A DNA stretch of 64,000 nucleotides from Bacteroidales bacterium (lineage in GTDB: Bacteria > Bacteroidota > Bacteroidia > Bacteroidales > UBA12077). Below are positions 54,343 through 64,000 of this stretch, one piece after another. The notes under the pieces were generated by a model, which saw only the letters and a program-made list of their open reading frames with translations, was not told where the DNA came from and did not search any database. The position numbers and the translations under genes are program-made. Location of the stretch: positions 1 to 64,000 of the forward strand of contig JANQHE010000023.1 in the NCBI GenBank assembly GCA_028282785.1, written 5' to 3'. Each line of letters opens with the position of its first letter. The first letter of the stretch is position 1.

Positions 54343-54639
54343 TTACATAGAAAATTCGTCACCGGTTAATTCATAAATTGCTTTCTTAAATTCGTTCATC
54401 TTTTCTTTATTTAACTGATAATGTACTATGGATCCGTATCGATCGGATATAACCAAATTACAGTCCTTTAGTACTTTTAGGTGTTGTGAAACAGCAGATT
54501 GGCTAATATCTAATTTGCTGGTAATAGCATTTACGCATTGTTTTTTATCCCTGATCAATTTAATAATCAGAATCCTGGATTTAACCGACAGTGCTTTAAA
54601 TATTTCAACTATTTCATTTTCAGTCATACTAATTAGCAT
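54343..54639 (-). CDS. ArsR-family transcriptional regulator
   Basis: ITSKLDISQSAVSQHLKVLKDCNLVISDRYGSIVHYQL winged HTH. Confidence 0.92.
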   Translation of the reverse strand: MLISMTENEIVEIFKALSVKSRILIIKLIRDKKQCVNAITSKLDISQSAVSQHLKVLKDCNLVISDRYGSIVHYQLNKEKMNEFKKAIYELTGDEFSM

Positions 54640-54754: not shown

Positions 54755-55849
54755 ATGAGAACAATAATAACGGAAAGAGTTATACACCGTGGTGAGAAAC
54801 GCGTAAAACTAATCTTTGATTTCGATGTTGAAATAATGAATATTTTAGATACATTAAGCAGTGTATCATGGAGCAATAGTATGAGTTGTTGGCACTGTAA
54901 TTATGTACCTGGATATTTTGAAATTCTACAACGAAAATTTAAAGGAACTGCGCAGATTATTGACCGAAGTAATTGTACGCACCGAAATTCTGCACATGGC
55001 TTAAATAAATGCCATTTAAAGGCATTAGACAAATTTGAAATTTATTTAAAAAACAGGCGTTATAGCCAAAGTACCATAGTTAGTTATAAAAAGCGAATCG
55101 GAGAATTCTTCGAATTTTATCATGACAAAGAAATTGATTTAATAACTAACGAAGATGTTCAGTATTTTAATTATGAAAAAATGATTAAACCGAGAGCATC
55201 GCATAGCAAGCAAAATATGTTCATAACCTCGCTTAAATTGTTTTTAAATACAATTTCTGAAAGTAAAATTGATATTGATAAGATTGAGCGGGCTAAAATT
55301 TCACGTAAGCTGCCTGAAGTGTTTTCAAAAACTGAGGTAGAAAAAATTCTAAATGCTACACAAAACTTGAAACACAAAACCTTATTGCTTATTACTTACG
55401 GATGTGGTTTACGACGCAGTGAAATAGGAAAATTAAGAATCGGTGATGTTAATTCGGAACGAAAACTTTTATTAATCAGAAATGCAAAAGGCAGGAAAGA
55501 CCGCTTTGTTCCATTATCTGAAAAACTTATTGAATCATTGCGGAATTATTATAAAATATATAAACCAAAAAAATATTTGTTCGAAACCCAACCTTCTGTA
55601 TCTTATCCGGGTGATACAGCCTATAAAGTTTTTAAACGAGCGTTGGAAAAGTCAAATATAAAAAAGGATGTTGGTATTCACTGCTTAAGGCATAGTTATG
55701 CAACTCATTTGTTAGAAAGTGGAACAGATTTACGTTATATTCAGAATATCTTAGGTCATAAAAGCACGAAAACAACTGAAATATACACACACGTTAGCAG
55801 TCAAAATTTAGGTAATATAAATAGTCCCGCAGATGATTTGGATATATAA
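54755..55849 (+). CDS. Tyrosine recombinase/integrase with extra N-terminal domain (candidate cassette integrase)
   Basis: YGCGLRRSEIGKL (R), HCLRHSYATHLLESGTDLRYIQNILGHKSTKTTEIYTHV (HxxR...H...Y); ~90 aa extra N-terminus before the SAM-like domain. Confidence 0.93.
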   Translation: MRTIITERVIHRGEKRVKLIFDFDVEIMNILDTLSSVSWSNSMSCWHCNYVPGYFEILQRKFKGTAQIIDRSNCTHRNSAHGLNKCHLKALDKFEIYLKNRRYSQSTIVSYKKRIGEFFEFYHDKEIDLITNEDVQYFNYEKMIKPRASHSKQNMFITSLKLFLNTISESKIDIDKIERAKISRKLPEVFSKTEVEKILNATQNLKHKTLLLITYGCGLRRSEIGKLRIGDVNSERKLLLIRNAKGRKDRFVPLSEKLIESLRNYYKIYKPKKYLFETQPSVSYPGDTAYKVFKRALEKSNIKKDVGIHCLRHSYATHLLESGTDLRYIQNILGHKSTKTTEIYTHVSSQNLGNINSPADDLDI

Positions 55850-55890
55850 ATATTATATTACATTTATATATTGGAAATATAAATCAGCAT

Positions 55891-55944
55891 TTGTCTTGAT
55901 AATCATCCATATTTGGAAATTATCAGGACAATTTGTCCTGATAA
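55891..55944. repeat. Three copies of TTGTCCTGATAA 12-mer (+,-,+) just downstream of the integrase
   Basis: 55891-55902 (1 mismatch), 55920-55931 inverted, 55933-55944; last two form TTATCAGGACAA-T-TTGTCCTGATAA. Confidence 0.8.
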
Positions 55945-56090
55945 AAACAAGTTAATAATAATATAAGCACCAGTTTTCTCTTTTCCATCCAGCGCAAGAC
56001 TTTTCAGTTTAAATTTAGGTATTGGCTCGTGCTTCTTTTGTAATTAGTTCTTTTTTAAGACAATAGTACTATCGTTGCAGCAAGCCCAAA

Positions 56091-56149
56091 TAACTTCGTT
56101 TAGTAGTCAAGAGCTTTGTTTACAAAGGGTCTGGAATGATAAACGAAGT
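56091..56149. repeat. Nested inverted repeat, candidate attI-like or regulatory hairpin
   Basis: AACTTCGTTTA ... TAAACGAAGTT (11 bp) enclosing CTTTGTTTACAAAG (56113-56126). Confidence 0.45.
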
Positions 56150-56452
56150 TAGTGTTTTATGGTCTAAGAATCAAGTCTCTGGCTATTGCTCTTTCGAGTG
56201 GGCCGATGATTTTGTACTGAAAAGTTATTTTAAGCCATTATTATTAACTATTCGTGCTATTTATCAGGCTACTACCCTGTTTTTTCAAAAGAAGCATAGA
56301 AAGGCTAGTAAATTATTAACTGACAGAAATTATTACTAACCATACCTCACCTTCAGGTCATAGTTAATAATAATTTCTTAAAATTCTTGCTGATGGTCTT
56401 TTGGAATGAATGTCTTAGCTTTAATCCAGGATATTACCGCTGCTTATACAAT

Positions 56453-56580
56453 TACTAACATCGTTTCACAAAGCATTCGGGCTTTGCCAATTGATAGAAT
56501 ATTGCTACTTTTAGGTTTCGGTTATCAAGTTAAAAGCGGAGGTTCGATACCGAACGCTTTGTAAACGAGAACCGTTACAC
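56453..56580 (+). repeat. attC-like site 0
   Basis: AACATCGTTT[C]ACAAAGCATTCGG pairs with CGAACGCTTTGTAAACGAGAACCGTTA; extra C at 56467. Confidence 0.75.
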
Positions 56581-56604
56581 ACAATATAAAAAATTGGGAA
56601 ATCC

Positions 56605-56636
56605 TTTGCTTTGGTCAAAATAATGTATTAACTTTG
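56605..56636 (+). promoter_or_regulatory. Bacteroidota-type promoter of the mazEF cassette
   Basis: TTTG (56605-56608) N20 TAACTTTG (56629-56636), ATG at 56661. Confidence 0.55.
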
Positions 56637-56660
56637 TAATTACAATTAAAAGTTAATGTT

Positions 56661-56906
56661 ATGGATATTTCAATTGTTCCAATAGGTAATTCAAAAGGTA
56701 TTAGACTGAGCAAAACACTGCTTGAAAAGTATAACATCAAGGACAAGGTCGAGCTTATTCTTGAGAAAGGTTATATCATTTTGAAACCAAAAGCAGAACC
56801 AAGAAAAGGTTGGGAAAAGGCTTTCAAGAAAATGCATGAGAGCGGTGATGACAAGCCATTAATGAATGACGTATTTGAAGAAGAAAATTTTGAAGAATGG
56901 CAGTAA
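56661..56906 (+). CDS. mazE: AbrB/MazE-like antitoxin
   Basis: VPIGNSKGIRLSKTLLEKYNIKDKVELILEKGYIILKP. Confidence 0.9.
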   Translation: MDISIVPIGNSKGIRLSKTLLEKYNIKDKVELILEKGYIILKPKAEPRKGWEKAFKKMHESGDDKPLMNDVFEEENFEEWQ

Positions 56907-57220
56907 ATCAGTATGAAATCGTATTAGTTAATCTTGATCCGACAATTGGGAGTGAGATTAAAAAGACCCGTCCTTGTGTGATAATTTCTCCCAACGAGAT
57001 GAATAAGTATTTGAATACTGTTGTTATTGCTCCAATGACAAGTAAATCTAAGAAATATCCAACGAGAATTCCTGTGAAACATGACAATAAGAAAGGTTGG
57101 ATTGTTCTTGACCAAATTAGAACAATTGACAAGCAAAGAATCATAAAGACATTGGATACTTTGACTGAAAAAGAGATTGTGCAAGTTAAGTTGATACTTA
57201 AGGAAACATTTGTAGACTAA
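56897..57220 (+). CDS. mazF: MazF/PemK-type mRNA interferase toxin
   Basis: YEIVLVNLDPTIGSEIKKTRPCVIISPNEMN; 10-nt overlap with antitoxin. Confidence 0.93.
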   Translation: MAVNQYEIVLVNLDPTIGSEIKKTRPCVIISPNEMNKYLNTVVIAPMTSKSKKYPTRIPVKHDNKKGWIVLDQIRTIDKQRIIKTLDTLTEKEIVQVKLILKETFVD

Positions 57221-57233
57221 TTTTTTATACAGT

Positions 57234-57370
57234 GTGTAACATTGCTTCACCAGTAATTTGGGTTTTCTTGGCGGTCTGACTAAGTTTTGCTATCTTCGAT
57301 TTCAATTATACGGTCTGACAGCAAAAGTGCTGTAGCTCCCAAACATACTGGTAAGCAAGGACCGTTATAA
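57234..57370 (+). repeat. attC-like site 1
   Basis: TGTAACATTGCTT[C]ACCAGTAATTTGGG pairs with CCCAAACATACTGGTAAGCAAGGACCGTTATAA; extra C at 57248. Confidence 0.85.
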
Positions 57371-57392
57371 CGCCATTTTTTAAATCGCAAGC

Positions 57393-58175
57393 ATGACAGA
57401 GCAAATAATCAGAGAAATAAAGAATTTAGAGAAAGAATTAGAAATAACAATCCTATACGCGGTTGAATCAGGTAGCAGAGCTTGGGGATTTGCTTCTACG
57501 GATAGTGACTGGGATGTGCGCTTTATTTACATTCACAAGAAAGATTGGTATTTATCAATTGATAATTACAAGGACAGTTATGACAAAATATTGCCAAATG
57601 ACATTGATTTGAGTGGTTGGGAACTTAGAAAAACCTTGAAGCTTTTTCGAAAATCAAATCCACCACTAATGGAATGGTTGAGAAGTCCTATCGTATATTA
57701 TAAAAGCTTTTCAATGATAGACAAGTTGAGAGAATTGTCTTCTGAATATTTTAATTCAAAATCATGCATGTATCACTACTTGCATATGGCTCAGGGAAAT
57801 TACAGAGAGTATTTAAAGTCTGACACAGTGAGAATAAAAAAGTATTTTTATGTTCTGAGACCAATCTTAGCTTGTATGTGGATAGAGAATACAAATACTA
57901 TGGCTCCAATGGAATTTCAAGAGCTTGTTGACACTCAAGTGAAAGATAATACTTTAAGACAGGAAATGGAAAAGCTTTTAAAGCGCAAAATGTCGGGAGA
58001 AGAACTTGACAAAGAACCGCGTATTCCTGTTATCAATGAATTTTTTGAAAAGAAACTGGAGTATTATGAAGACTATTTATCTAATTATGATACTTCGCTT
58101 CAACCTGACACAGAAAAGCTTGATAGATTATTTAGAGAAACATTGGAAGAAACTAATTTAAAAAACGGCGTATAA
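57393..58175 (+). CDS. YcgL/COG3541-like predicted nucleotidyltransferase
   Basis: AVESGSRAWGFASTDSDWDVRFIYIH; stop codon lies inside attC-like site 2. Confidence 0.88.
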   Translation: MTEQIIREIKNLEKELEITILYAVESGSRAWGFASTDSDWDVRFIYIHKKDWYLSIDNYKDSYDKILPNDIDLSGWELRKTLKLFRKSNPPLMEWLRSPIVYYKSFSMIDKLRELSSEYFNSKSCMYHYLHMAQGNYREYLKSDTVRIKKYFYVLRPILACMWIENTNTMAPMEFQELVDTQVKDNTLRQEMEKLLKRKMSGEELDKEPRIPVINEFFEKKLEYYEDYLSNYDTSLQPDTEKLDRLFRETLEETNLKNGV

Positions 58176-58306
58176 CATTGGGTCAAACTACATGCGGGGG
58201 TTTGGCAGCTTGCTGACTAAATATTATCTTAGTAAACATTAATAACGGGGGACTGATAAGTAAGGCGGGGGAAACCCGCACGTAGCTTACCCAAAGACCG
58301 TTATAA
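58171..58306 (+). repeat. attC-like site 2
   Basis: TATAACATTGGGT[C]AAACTACATGCGGG pairs with CCCGCACGTAGCTTACCCAAAGACCGTTATAA; extra C at 58184. Confidence 0.88.
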
Positions 58307-58333
58307 GGCATTAAATTTTTGAAAACAAGAAAC

Positions 58334-58858
58334 ATGAAGCGTTGCATTGAAATTCTATTCGTTTTGACTCTCTTTTCTCAAATCGTTCAAGGTCAATCAA
58401 AATCTGATAATGTATTGAAAACTGTTGAAACAATTCACGCGTTTAGTTCTCCAACTGAAATGGATACTTTTATGTTAACATTGAAAGGTAACTCAATTGT
58501 TGATGGAGAGATATGCTTTGAGATAATTAATTACAAAGGTTTAAAAATATATTCTGAAACATTTAAATCTACAAAGTTAATTGGATATGGTTTATTAGAA
58601 TTTGAAAATCCTACAGAAAAAGATAAAGTTGAATTTATTAAAAAACGCATGAATGAGTTCTTTGCAGAAAGTAATTTTTTACAACCAGCAATTCCTAAAA
58701 CTGAAGAGTTTGATGAAGACTATTACGAGAAAGAAACTTTCTATAAAATTCAAAATAATTTTAATTCAATAGGGTTTTCCTATGTGATAGGTGAAGAAGA
58801 TATTAGACAAATTACTATCGTTGATAATAAGGTCATAATTTATTGGAATTGTTGTTAA
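58334..58858 (+). CDS. Small secreted hypothetical protein
   Basis: Signal peptide MKRCIEILFVLTLFSQIVQGQ. Confidence 0.6.
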   Translation: MKRCIEILFVLTLFSQIVQGQSKSDNVLKTVETIHAFSSPTEMDTFMLTLKGNSIVDGEICFEIINYKGLKIYSETFKSTKLIGYGLLEFENPTEKDKVEFIKKRMNEFFAESNFLQPAIPKTEEFDEDYYEKETFYKIQNNFNSIGFSYVIGEEDIRQITIVDNKVIIYWNCC

Positions 58859-58873
58859 CTGAAACATATAACT

Positions 58874-59317
58874 ATGAGAAATTATTTATTCATTTTACTA
58901 TTTGCTTTTCCTGTTTTATCTTTTGGACAGGTAGAAAAGTTAAGTTTAATTGAAACTAATAAAGACAATTATCGGTGGATAACTTTCCTTTCTCAAGGAG
59001 ACATAGATTGGTTGGATGAGCCAATTAATGAAGTGGAAGGAATTGCATTTAGGTTTATTGTTACTACTTCTGACATTTATAATCAAATGTATATTGAAAA
59101 AGTAACTTTTGGAATGGAAGGCTGTTGTAAAAAAATTAGTTCGAAAAGAGAGCTGCCAATTGACAATGTTTTCAAATTATTCGGCTTGAAAGGTGAAAGA
59201 GCAGGTGTTGAATTTGGTGAATGGAAAAGTCCAACTTCATTCGAATTCAAAATCTATGACAATAAGTTTCTTGTAGAAGACACTCACAAGGACAAAGTGT
59301 TAATTAGTAAAATTTAA
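58874..59317 (+). CDS. Small secreted hypothetical protein
   Basis: Signal peptide MRNYLFILLFAFPVLSFGQ. Confidence 0.65.
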   Translation: MRNYLFILLFAFPVLSFGQVEKLSLIETNKDNYRWITFLSQGDIDWLDEPINEVEGIAFRFIVTTSDIYNQMYIEKVTFGMEGCCKKISSKRELPIDNVFKLFGLKGERAGVEFGEWKSPTSFEFKIYDNKFLVEDTHKDKVLISKI

Positions 59318-59322
59318 CGCCT

Positions 59323-59490
59323 TATAACACGCGTTCAAATTCCATGCGGGGTTTTGTGGTTAGCTGACTAAGTTTTATCTTAGTGTGGTCGTTCAACGGT
59401 GGACAATAAAACAAGGCGGAACTAAGCGCAGCGACCTCATGAGCCGCAGGCGATTAAACCCGCACGAAACTTAACGCGGGACCGTTATAA
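59323..59490 (+). repeat. attC-like site 3
   Basis: TATAACACGCGTT[C]AAATTCCATGCGGG pairs with CCCGCACGAAACTTAACGCGGGACCGTTATAA; extra C at 59336. Confidence 0.86.
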
Positions 59491-59499
59491 GCCATATAT

Positions 59500-60507
59500 G
59501 TGCATATGTTTGACATTGAATACATTGGTAAAGACAATCAAGGAATTGACATTGCAAAAGTTTCTGTTCAATTAGCTAAGCAATACGTTGAAATGTCTTA
59601 CCAGTTTGATAATGTATACAAGAATGAAACTTTTCTACTTCTGAGAGATAATAGAAAGGAACTTACAAAAAAACAAGATAGAATTTGCAGATTCTGTGGG
59701 AATAGAATTCCAAATGTAAAATTTAATAAGGAAGCACATTTTATACCTCAATATTTTGGTAACAAGCATTTTTTATCTGACTTTGAATGTGATACTTGTA
59801 ATCATATTTTTAGTGTCTATGAGAATGATTTTGCTAACTTTTTGGGTTTAAAACGTAGTTTTGCTCCCAAGACAGGTAAAAAAGGAATTCCAACATATAA
59901 AACTCCAGACCAAAAGTTTGTTATTAGAGCAGATGAAAATGATGGTATTAGATTTGAAACAGAGTTAGATGATATAGGATATTTTATTCAGGACAGAACT
60001 AAAAAAGAGATAAATATTAAGCATATAAAATATCCATATGTTCCTATAAATGTATTTAAATGTTTACTGAAAGTTGCAGTTTCATTGATTGATAAGGAAG
60101 AACTCTCCAAATATAATGAAACTATAGAGTTTCTTATGAATGATAGCTTAAAAGAACCTAAAAGTCCATTAATTGCTATTCATCAGTTTTTTATTCCAGG
60201 TCCACCAGTAAAGACTCCTTTACTATTTCTATATAGAAAACGGGAAAGTGTATCAAATCATTTAATTCCTGAAAGAACTATGATTATTACATTTCATAAT
60301 TATACTTATCAATTGTTTATTCCATTTGATAAGACTGAGAATAAGTTGAATGACACAAAAGGTAAAATAAAGGCATTCATCATGCCTCCATTGGTAAGTC
60401 AAAACTGGATTGATAAGTATGGAAATCCTGTTTCAAGCTTGAAAAACCTTAGAGATATAAAAACTGTAAAAAGTGATGAAGAGAAAATCAAGTTTAAATA
60501 TGAATAA
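59500..60507 (+). CDS. HNH endonuclease-like protein
   Basis: CRFCGNRIPNVKFNKEAHFIPQYFGNKHFLSDFECDTCNHIFS treble-clef CxxC...AHxIP...CxxC. Confidence 0.82.
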   Translation: MHMFDIEYIGKDNQGIDIAKVSVQLAKQYVEMSYQFDNVYKNETFLLLRDNRKELTKKQDRICRFCGNRIPNVKFNKEAHFIPQYFGNKHFLSDFECDTCNHIFSVYENDFANFLGLKRSFAPKTGKKGIPTYKTPDQKFVIRADENDGIRFETELDDIGYFIQDRTKKEINIKHIKYPYVPINVFKCLLKVAVSLIDKEELSKYNETIEFLMNDSLKEPKSPLIAIHQFFIPGPPVKTPLLFLYRKRESVSNHLIPERTMIITFHNYTYQLFIPFDKTENKLNDTKGKIKAFIMPPLVSQNWIDKYGNPVSSLKNLRDIKTVKSDEEKIKFKYE

Positions 60508-60516
60508 TATACGGCT

Positions 60517-60653
60517 TATAACATTGGGTCATAAAGCATGCGGGTGTTTGGTGGTGTGCTGACTAAATATTATCTTAGTTCAGGTTTTCAACGGAGGACT
60601 GATAAGCAAGGCGGGAAACTCCCGCACAGCTTCATACCCAAGGACCGTTATAG
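60517..60653 (+). repeat. attC-like site 4
   Basis: TATAACATTGGGT[C]ATAAAGCATGCGGG pairs with CCCGCACAGCTTCATACCCAAGGACCGTTATAG; extra C at 60530. Confidence 0.88.
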
Positions 60654-60680
60654 GGCATTTTATAACGCAACAATTTTGTT

Positions 60681-60711
60681 TTTGTAATATTATGACTTAA
60701 TATTATATTTG
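60681..60711 (+). promoter_or_regulatory. Bacteroidota-type promoter inside the lipoprotein cassette
   Basis: TTTG (60681-60684) N19 TATATTTG (60704-60711), ATG at 60771. Confidence 0.6.
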
Positions 60712-60770
60712 ATTCAATTTTTTAACATGATTAATGTGTAGTTTAATAACTTGAAAATAAAAATATTGAT

Positions 60771-62513
60771 ATGAAAAATACAAGTTTGAACCTTGGTATA
60801 CTAATCATTTTATTTATTTTAAGTTTAATTTTTATATCTTGTGAAAAGGAAGAGAAGGATTATCCTGTTGCTGCAAAAATAGAATTAGTTTCAGGTAATA
60901 ACCAAACTACCTTAATGGGGAATGAGTTGGCTTATCCTATAGTTATAAAAGTTACTGATCAAAATGGAGATCCACATAGTGGAACAGATGTTTCATTTAT
61001 TGTTGAAGAAGGATCAACATCTGTATCTTCAGGTGTATCTGATGAAAAAGGGTTTGTGAGTGTTAAATGGGCAGTTGGAAACTCTTCGAGTGATCAAATT
61101 TTAACTGTAACTGCTTTTGAAGAAGATGGTATAACATCTTTGATAGGTTCTCCTCTCACCGTAAATGCATCATCTTTGGTACCAACAAAATTGGAATTAG
61201 TATTAGGAAATAATCAAAATGGAATACTTGGTGATACATTAAAAGAATCAATAATTGTCAGAGTTCTTGATCAAAAAGGCACTGCAATTGCAGGTCATTA
61301 CGTTCATTTCTCTGTTAATGATAATGGTGAAATATATCCTGAAGGTTTATCTAATTATTTGGGAGAGACTACTAACTCATGGAAATTAGGTACAAATACT
61401 TTTGATCAGCGACTAGAAATATCGTCATTCAGAACTGACGGAATAACCCATTTGGAAGGTTCTCCTTTAATAATAGAACCTAAAATTGCAACAACCTTAG
61501 AAGTAGTTTCAGGAAATAATCAAACAGGTGAAATTTTAACTAGCTTAGATGAACCTATCATTGTTCGGGTAAAAGACCAGAATGGGAATGCCATTGCTGG
61601 AATTCCTGTAGCTTTTGAAGAACCATTGGATATTGGAGGTGGTTTGTATGTTCCTTTTTTTACGTTATATGACACTTCTAATGCTGAAGGGCTAGTTGAA
61701 CACAAGTGGAAATTACAAAATCATGGTAGCTTATCTTCACAACGAGAATTAAATATTATGATTGTAAATTCTGATAGTATAATTGCCCCTAATACACAAT
61801 TAATTAAAGCTAATGCAACTGCTACTGCATTAACAAAAACAGTGACTGATATAGATGGAAATGAGTATGGTGTTCTTCCATATGGAGATAATTTATGGAT
61901 GACTTCTAATTTGAAAACAACAAATTATAATGATGGTAGTGAAATTGATAATATTACAGGGACTCTTGATTGGTACAATGCAACATCAGGAGCTTATTGT
62001 TGGTTTGACAATGATGTAATTAATAATGAAAAGTATGGCGCACTATATAACTGGTATGTTGTGGAAACAGAGAAGTTGTGTCCACATGGTTGGAGAGTTC
62101 CAACTAAAGATGATTGGAATTCGTTAATTAATTATTTAACAGCGAATGGTTTTGGTTTTGAAGGGAGTGGTTCCGATGTTGCAAAATCCATGGCAACAAA
62201 AACTGATTGGAATGATCTTTCGGCAGTAATTATAACTCCTGGCGCAATTGTATATCAAATGGAAGATAATAACAGCAGCGGTTTTTCTGTGTATCCTGCA
62301 GGTTTTAGAATGATTGGTGGACATACTGATAATCCAGATTATGTATTGACACATGATTTTATGCTAGATGGGGTAAGATCGAAGTTTTGGACATTCACCA
62401 AATATGAAGAAACAGGAGCTTATAATTTTTCACTAAGAAGTCTTGAAGCAGAAGTTTCTAACTCAACCAGTAATTTTTATTCAGGTATGAGTGTTCGTTG
62501 CATACGAGAGTAA
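60771..62513 (+). CDS. Surface lipoprotein with three Big_1/invasin-like repeats and FISUMP domain
   Basis: Lipobox FISC; three 'LVSGNNQ...V.D.NG..I.G..V.F' repeats; WMTSNLKTTNYNDGS...CPHGWRVPTKDDW. Confidence 0.85.
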   Translation: MKNTSLNLGILIILFILSLIFISCEKEEKDYPVAAKIELVSGNNQTTLMGNELAYPIVIKVTDQNGDPHSGTDVSFIVEEGSTSVSSGVSDEKGFVSVKWAVGNSSSDQILTVTAFEEDGITSLIGSPLTVNASSLVPTKLELVLGNNQNGILGDTLKESIIVRVLDQKGTAIAGHYVHFSVNDNGEIYPEGLSNYLGETTNSWKLGTNTFDQRLEISSFRTDGITHLEGSPLIIEPKIATTLEVVSGNNQTGEILTSLDEPIIVRVKDQNGNAIAGIPVAFEEPLDIGGGLYVPFFTLYDTSNAEGLVEHKWKLQNHGSLSSQRELNIMIVNSDSIIAPNTQLIKANATATALTKTVTDIDGNEYGVLPYGDNLWMTSNLKTTNYNDGSEIDNITGTLDWYNATSGAYCWFDNDVINNEKYGALYNWYVVETEKLCPHGWRVPTKDDWNSLINYLTANGFGFEGSGSDVAKSMATKTDWNDLSAVIITPGAIVYQMEDNNSSGFSVYPAGFRMIGGHTDNPDYVLTHDFMLDGVRSKFWTFTKYEETGAYNFSLRSLEAEVSNSTSNFYSGMSVRCIRE

Positions 62514-62552
62514 CGTGTTTTGCAAATCGTACATTAAATAAACTAAACGCCC

Positions 62553-62688
62553 TATAACATTGGGTCATAAAGCATGCGGGTTTTTGGTTGTGTCCTGACT
62601 AAGTATTATATTCGTTAAGGTTTTACAGTTTGACTGACAAAGTAGGAGAAAAACTCCCGCACAGCTTCATACCCAAGGACCGTTAGCC
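62553..62688 (+). repeat. attC-like site 5
   Basis: TATAACATTGGGT[C]ATAAAGCATGCGGG pairs with CCCGCACAGCTTCATACCCAAGGACCGTTAGCC; extra C at 62566. Confidence 0.88.
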
Positions 62689-62703
62689 ACCATTTTATGC
62701 GAA

Positions 62704-63648
62704 ATGAACAAAGAGCTATTAAATACATTATATGACACTTTTCATATAAGTTCTAACGTTTGCTTATATCCAGGAATGGAATGTAAAAGAAAACCTATAA
62801 AGGCTCATTCAATTCAAAATTCAAAAGTACTTGATTTATTAAGTGATAATTCTCACTTAATTGGGTTAAAGTCATTGGTTGATAATGAAGTAAATCAAGA
62901 TATTATTTTTGACAAAATTGGAAAAAATAAAGCATCAACTTTTACTGGATTGTGCAGTTATCATGATAAAACATTATTTCAATCAATAGATGACTTTGAG
63001 ATTAATATAACTAATAATAAACAATTATTCTTACTTGCATATAGGTCTGTATTAAAAGAACTGCATGCGTCAATTACGGCAGCGATAAAAGTTCAAACTG
63101 TATATGAAAAAACAAAGGAACTAGGTTTAGTTGTAGATGAAAAGCAACCGAAACCAGCGGAAATCGCAGTTCAAAAGATTATGGATTCTTTTGATACATT
63201 TCAATATAAATCTGAGTTTGATAAGGCTTTACTTAAAAGTAATTATAAATTTTTGAGCCATAAAGTTATTGAAATAGAGACTAAATTACCTACAATAGCA
63301 TGCAGTACCTTATTCTCAAATGACGCAGTCAAATATAAAGATGATGTTTCAAGAATAATTATGAATGTTTTTCCTGTAAATGAGAAGCTCAGTTATGTAA
63401 TTTTTTCTTTTACATCCTTTGAAAAAACTTTAGCAGAAGATTACCTTTATAAATGCTTAAATAGTGCAGGTTTTTCAAGAAACTATGAAATATCAAAATT
63501 AATTATTCGCAACTCTGAAAACTTTTTTATTAATCCTAAATATTTTAAAAATTGGTCTGAAACTAAAAAGAATAAAATTATTAATTATTTTTTGGACACT
63601 GTATATGAAGATAAGGATTTAGACCATGCCGATTATTACTTATTTTAA
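62704..63648 (+). CDS. Hypothetical Cys/His-rich protein (HNH-like N-terminus)
   Basis: CLYPGMECKRKPIKAHSIQN...ASTFTGLCSYHDKTLF. Confidence 0.55.
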   Translation: MNKELLNTLYDTFHISSNVCLYPGMECKRKPIKAHSIQNSKVLDLLSDNSHLIGLKSLVDNEVNQDIIFDKIGKNKASTFTGLCSYHDKTLFQSIDDFEINITNNKQLFLLAYRSVLKELHASITAAIKVQTVYEKTKELGLVVDEKQPKPAEIAVQKIMDSFDTFQYKSEFDKALLKSNYKFLSHKVIEIETKLPTIACSTLFSNDAVKYKDDVSRIIMNVFPVNEKLSYVIFSFTSFEKTLAEDYLYKCLNSAGFSRNYEISKLIIRNSENFFINPKYFKNWSETKKNKIINYFLDTVYEDKDLDHADYYLF

Positions 63649-63672
63649 ATAACGAAACTGAAATAAATTTTT

Positions 63673-64000
63673 ATGAATGTTATAACTCCATCTGTAAGTA
63701 TAATTCAAGAATATCTTAGAAAGTGGGATTCTTTGGAAAACTATGTTTTACAAGAAAGCAGCTTAAAGAAGTTATTCACTAAGACATATCCTGCCAATAA
63801 TAACATGGACGATGTTTTAATCAAAGTTTGTTCATTAAATGACTTTTATAGTACAAATATATATTCTCCATTTTTTGTTGCTAAACACATTGTGACACTT
63901 AATATCGATGATAGGCTAAAAAGGAATGACTTAGAGATAGTTAATGAGATTGCTAAGGTAAAAATGAATGGTAAAAAAGAGATTAATTTTTATTCATTTG
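63673..64000 (+). CDS. Hypothetical protein, 5' part (runs off right edge)
   Basis: ATG at 63673: MNVITPSVSIIQEYLRKWDSLENYVLQESSLKKLFTKTYPANNNMDDVLIKV..., open to the window end. Confidence 0.6.
   Translation, partial: MNVITPSVSIIQEYLRKWDSLENYVLQESSLKKLFTKTYPANNNMDDVLIKVCSLNDFYSTNIYSPFFVAKHIVTLNIDDRLKRNDLEIVNEIAKVKMNGKKEINFYSF

Follow-up and report, generated by a model that had tools for sequence, protein, structure and literature searches.

The stretch of DNA analysed here (the window) comprises 64,000 nucleotides, namely bases 1-64000 of contig C53 of a Bacteroidales draft genome (G000; 5.5 Mb in 81 contigs), and the contig itself ends at 77,276. It contains a gene for a tyrosine recombinase and, 3' of it, six homologous imperfect palindromes (s0-s5, measured from AAC to GTT) separating unrelated genes. 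An earlier note on this DNA had described them as an integron-like cassette array with a non-canonical integrase, but it had missed the attI site and the first cassette (cassette 0). The features are the following:

54755-55849, + strand: integron-type tyrosine recombinase of 364 aa, with an extra N-terminal domain (~75 aa), a core-binding and a catalytic domain
55837-55866, + strand: putative cassette promoter, weakly matched in the window (TTTG ... TACATTTA); the assignment is inferred
55889-55954, + strand: attI, with direct repeats TTTGTCTTGATAA / TTTGTCCTGATAA and core AAAACAAG^TTA; insertion GTT at 55951-55953
55952-56574, + strand: cassette 0, without a convincing ORF (best 67 aa, 56136-56339); complementary ends GTTAATAATAATATAAGC / GCTTATACAATTACTAAC
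56457-56576, + strand: attC s0
56661-56906, + strand: cassette 1, MazE-like antitoxin (weak MazE family match)
56897-57220, + strand: cassette 1, MazF/PemK toxin (clear PemK/MazF match)
57238-57366, + strand: attC s1
57393-58175, + strand: cassette 2, RlaP-family nucleotidyltransferase, whose stop codon lies within attC s2
58174-58302, + strand: attC s2
58319-58858, + strand: cassette 3, secreted ORF 1 (no family)
58874-59317, + strand: cassette 3, secreted ORF 2 (no family)
59326-59486, + strand: attC s3, with a longer loop
59500-60507, + strand: cassette 4, HNH_5 protein (weak PtuB similarity)
60520-60649, + strand: attC s4
60771-62513, + strand: cassette 5, lipoprotein with Big_1 and FISUMP
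62556-62684, + strand: attC s5
62704-63648, + strand: cassette 6, ORF 1 (no family)
63673-64000, continuing to contig position 64257, + strand: cassette 6, ORF 2 (no family above cut-off)

The gene contents, including the ORF that stops inside the second palindrome after s0, are those that had been described before. The six sites are likewise real, but the array does not end with them: beyond the window it runs on through s6 to s13 and reaches 76.56 kb of the 77,276-bp contig, which gives at least 14 attC up to the contig end and a span of about 20.6 kb, with transposase-like sequence at the far end. Inside attC s6 there is an IS110-family element (contig C53 64290-65805; L006:14290-15805), and a Chryseobacterium plasmid (L138) has another IS110, together with a group II intron, in the region of its array. 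More attC clusters, away from the integrase contig, are present on contigs C57, C37, C40, C1, C55 and C7 of the same genome (39 sites in all). Searched at the nucleotide level against the DNA of relatives, the array gives few matches, mostly attC-sized; the others are a MazEF that lies outside any array and a weak toxin-antitoxin hit from Cecembia. The former is an 80% identical copy of the cassette 1 MazEF (window 56601-57226; MazE protein 95% identical) in the related genome G016 (L031:532-1157), where it adjoins RmuC, outside any array and without an attC, so that an origin of cassette 1 from a chromosomal gene is possible. The latter relates a toxin-antitoxin cassette at contig positions 75740-76407 to the first cassette after attI in Cecembia (L097:5380-5921; 65% DNA identity). 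A further cassette protein (contig C53 67675-67977; L006:17675-17974) matches Pfam Hfx_Cass5, a family named after integron cassette proteins.

Regarding the recombinase, it matches PF00589 and carries the catalytic Arg, Lys, His-x-x-Arg, His and Tyr as R220, K245, H309, R312, H335 and Y344, all of them invariant. Against the integron integrase model TIGR02249 it scores 193.3 bits, split over two stretches that leave out the middle, and thus does not reach the cut-off of 265; against XerA_Arch it scores 198.7 bits (cut-off 220). The skipped middle has its counterpart in the alignment with IntI1 and Bacteroidota IntI, in which 54 residues of the window protein stand where IntI has 96-97; all its domain-less relatives have 54-55 in this region and Xer has 58-62. 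In other words, the additional domain of IntI around patch III (~42 residues) is missing in every cassette-array integrase examined, and most members of the family carry instead an extra N-terminal domain of about 75 residues. An AlphaFold2 model (mean pLDDT 88.9), computed from an alignment of the window protein with related loci (A5), finds VchIntIA (2a3v) as its best PDB match, and archaeal Xer and XerA as the nearest other structures. The protein is 34% identical to the Xer encoded in its own genome. In a 65-row tree, IntI (100/100) falls inside the domain-less family and Xer outside it (100/100), so that the protein does not group with Xer, which was represented by XerC and XerD of E. coli and by the Xer of this genome, but not by archaeal XerA. 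A phage origin was not supported either, phage relatives reaching only about 34% identity. Did IntI gain the domain, or did this family lose it? A tree with the domain-less integrases as one clade beside IntI is not rejected (p-AU 0.26), for which reason it is not claimed that IntI evolved from domain-less integrases, and the question of gain or loss remains unresolved. On the other side of the gene, an ArsR-type regulator gene (window 54343-54639, - strand) diverges from that of the integrase; it is absent at the syntenic place in G016.

The palindromes were modelled with two covariance models, one built from the contig's own sites (R1) and a wider one (R2). R1 recovers s0-s5, and a scan of the 64-kb window with R2 returns exactly these six and nothing else. 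They exceed chance: 90% of the cells in attC pairs are paired, vs 38-51% when the partner is slid, and 11 of the 23 pairs show double changes, on both sides. Folding predicts bottom-strand hairpins with single extra-helical bases, s7 alone folding poorly, and all the sites of the array lie on one strand. As for the core boxes, which had been read as TATAAC/GTTATA, only AAC/GTT is constant; the neighbouring bases differ from cassette to cassette and pair between the ends of the cassette to which they belong. What sets this array apart is the integrase with its missing domain, and not the core boxes.

The integrase of class 1 integrons uses the folded bottom strand. That the domain-less integrase itself does the same with these attC is an inference, and the alternative that best survives is that it recombines double-stranded sites, as XerA and phage integrases do, the palindrome being incidental. 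In its favour, the single-stranded-DNA-binding additional domain is missing, and archaeal Xer and XerA are the structures next nearest to the model. Nevertheless, it leaves the compensatory changes that keep the hairpin over 23 pairs without an explanation, and at least one cassette (that of blaVEB, see below) is used by both the domain-less system and class 1 integrons, which makes this alternative improbable.

Behind the integrase stop, the DNA of relatives is conserved up to ...ATAWAMWAG^TTA and unrelated after it, and in one of them (G004) the contig ends exactly at this insertion point. In the window, the attI so defined follows the integrase gene at a distance of about 100 bp; of 40 relatives taken from genome records, 39 carry its motif no more than 230 bp from the stop of the integrase (shuffled mean 3.4, maximum 10). 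Some 14 nt after the same stop, the -7 box of Bacteroidota type (TAnnTTTG) is enriched, its strict form being present in 22 of the 40 (shuffled mean 1.1, maximum 8), although its role as cassette promoter is inferred. Contig ends fall less than 300 bp from the integrase on its 3' side in 18 of 84 cases and on its 5' side in 1 of 65. Repeats with a GTT, perhaps attI, were also seen behind integrase relatives in a Spirochaetes MAG (L105) and in Halonatronum saccharophilum (L135); no attC arrays were found in these two with R1 or R2.

The distribution of both elements could be followed by scanning relatives in the Bacteroidota with the new models, as the earlier note had proposed. R1 has matches in all 20 genomes sampled from the genus, the number per genome extending from one weak match (G014, E 8.6e-5) to 56 or more, and canonical IntI was found in none of the 20. 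Across 346 Bacteroidia genomes, R2 finds attC in at least 251, and the domain-less integrase is present in 189 and canonical IntI in 2. At least 173 of the 189 integrase-positive genomes have attC, and 16 have none among the matches listed (Fisher odds ratio 11, without correction for relatedness). Wherever integrase and attC share a contig within 70 kb, attC lies downstream in the expected orientation (31/31, among the matches listed). When R2 was applied to loci of which nearly all had played no part in its training, 50 of its 50 matches lay on the strand expected. Among the named relatives are Flavobacterium psychrophilum, F. limicola, F. palustre, Algoriphagus, Pedobacter, Pontibacter and Chryseobacterium plasmids. 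Elsewhere in the phylum canonical IntI is common, exceeding the cut-off in 85 of 297 genomes. The locus looks sedentary, since its RmuC and HAD neighbours are common to G000 and G016.

These figures bear on a second alternative, a CALIN, that is, relic cassettes moved formerly or in trans by a canonical IntI, next to an unrelated recombinase that would be XerA-like or the partner of an IS91-like element. It can appeal to the integrase scoring slightly higher on the XerA model than on that of IntI, and to a family that includes the partner of an IS91-like transposase, some of its members, on such elements, not lying beside attC arrays. However, canonical IntI is nearly absent from the class although attC is frequent there, the integrase stands upstream of attC in every same-contig pair among the matches listed, and a conserved attI behind the gene would be superfluous to a bystander enzyme. 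This possibility is thus slightly weaker still than that of double-stranded recombination.

Integron cassettes move as circles, and consequently the bases that follow the starting GTT of a cassette should pair with those that precede the AAC of its own attC. That is what is observed: the right flank of site k against the left flank of site k+1 has a mean complementarity score of 11.2, compared with 5.25 when both flanks come from a single site and 5.4 in the remaining combinations, and the observed value was reached in 0 of 20,000 permutations. Examples of such ends are GTTATAAGGCATTAAATTTT / AAAATTTAACGCCTTATAAC and GTTACACACAATATAAAAAATT / AATTTTTTATACAGTGTGTAAC. Among related genomes, the same test gave 0 of 5000 permutations in G007 (17 sites) and in G016 (19 sites) and a weaker signal in G011 (86 of 5000); three smaller arrays (F. 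limicola, L091 and L078) tend in the same direction, but are too small for significance. Complementary ends of one cassette are, as far as can be read from DNA alone, the mark that circular cassettes leave when they are cut at G^TT.

Exact junctions are provided by the cassette of the resistance gene blaVEB (GTTAGCGGTAATTTAACC...), which is joined at G^TT to three different attI sites, with an identical cassette start at each. One of them is the attI1 of a class 1 integron (L141). The other two are of the Bacteroidota type, one lying on an Aliarcobacter plasmid (L142) and one on Klebsiella plasmids (L140), where it follows a truncated integrase of the family. The attC of the blaVEB cassette is detected by R1 (E about 1e-6). 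Cassettes therefore cross between the two systems. The earlier note would have been refuted by sites differing in point mutations only, without gain or loss at the GTT; these junctions, together with related genomes that differ by whole cassettes and not by point mutations (there is no strain pair for the window array itself), speak in its favour. So does the search for a known repeat family, Rfam giving no attC family and only chance matches for the array. The palindromes, homologous, imperfect and placed between unrelated genes, might at first sight suggest a REP- or MITE-type family without cassette mobility, but this idea can practically be dismissed and REP-like repeats were rejected, because the two flanks of each site are no more complementary than unrelated pairs, and also in view of the sites all lying on one strand and of a known resistance cassette carrying one that the model from the window's contig finds.

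A comparable case may be that of tet(X3) on an Acinetobacter plasmid (L137, NZ_CP041297.1, 5001-7150), where a truncated member of the integrase family, TnpF, lies 190 bp upstream. The gene region starts with GTTATGTGCCATTTTT and ends in ...AAAAACGGCTACTAAC, which are cassette-like complementary ends, and its attC appears to have been cut off by the ISCR2 region. The resemblance to a cassette is only a lead, yet the shared blaVEB and tet(X3) behind a truncated integrase suggest that mobile resistance genes have a source in Bacteroidota integrons.

Taken together, the locus is very probably a complete chromosomal integron. The criteria for one are met, namely a site-specific tyrosine recombinase gene adjoining the array, an attI with a GTT insertion point beside it, attC that form single-stranded hairpins and keep structure more than sequence, cassettes in tandem that each carry an attC (with two or more attC less than 4 kb apart) and, indirectly, through the complementary ends and the blaVEB junctions, movement as circles cut at G^TT. 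To these, sequence comparison adds the conserved attI followed by unrelated first cassettes, the class-wide association and the absence of canonical IntI, while the activity and the promoter are inferred, as is any current activity in this strain. According to this integron reading, the recombinase encoded at 54755-55849 would excise cassettes as circles and re-insert them, the folded single-stranded attC hairpins being cleaved at G^TT for joining to attI. Given the position of attI behind the gene, new cassettes would enter beside it and the array would grow on the + strand, with transcription probably starting at a promoter located between the end of the integrase gene and attI. What stands against the integron reading is that IntI activity has been reported to depend on the additional domain missing here (Messier and Roy 2001, as cited in PMC7784347).

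Integrons had been thought of in the earlier note as established mainly in Proteobacteria; in fact, they are already on record in Bacteroidota (PMC9024848, PMC8618304), including a complete one in Salinibacter ruber (PMC9024848). The window locus shares with the sedentary chromosomal integrons of Vibrio, Xanthomonas and Salinibacter ruber an integrase, an attI, tandem cassettes in one direction with attC hairpins, a content of toxin-antitoxin and orphan genes and a conserved chromosomal position. Unlike them, its integrase lacks the additional domain and is encoded on the cassette strand, with attI behind its 3' end. Compared with IntI itself (TIGR02249; VchIntIA, IntI1), the protein has the best-matching fold, the same core and catalytic domains and an SPxD-type C-terminus, and it joins IntI apart from Xer in the tree, but differs by the shorter central region and, in most members, by the N-terminal extension. 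XerA, XerC and XerD likewise have no additional domain, but Xer branches separately and does not adjoin cassette arrays. TnpF (tpnF), 41% identical, truncated and followed by a cassette-like gene, belongs to the family and has been described only as a recombinase gene, with no link to integrons (PMC7722449). No paper on a domain-less integron integrase or on Bacteroidota cassette arrays turned up in a search that did not extend to subscription papers or preprints. The array is a genuine integron of a phylum in which integrons were known, with a type of integrase that was not found described.

Such integrons are widespread, occurring in about half of the sampled Bacteroidia. Surveys recognise IntI by its additional domain (PMC9668308, PMC2426708, PMC7784347), and by that definition domain-less platforms would be counted as integrase-less or missed. 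A broader proposal, tentative and held with rather less than even confidence, is that domain-less integrases run functional, structure-specific cassette recombination in most integron-bearing Bacteroidia, that canonical IntI arose inside this family with the domain as a late addition, and that Bacteroidota integrons are a main reservoir on which class 1 integrons drew for cassettes such as blaVEB. In any case, the missing domain allows a direct test of what an enzyme needs for recombining a folded single strand, in a type of integron that shares at least one resistance-gene cassette with those of hospitals.
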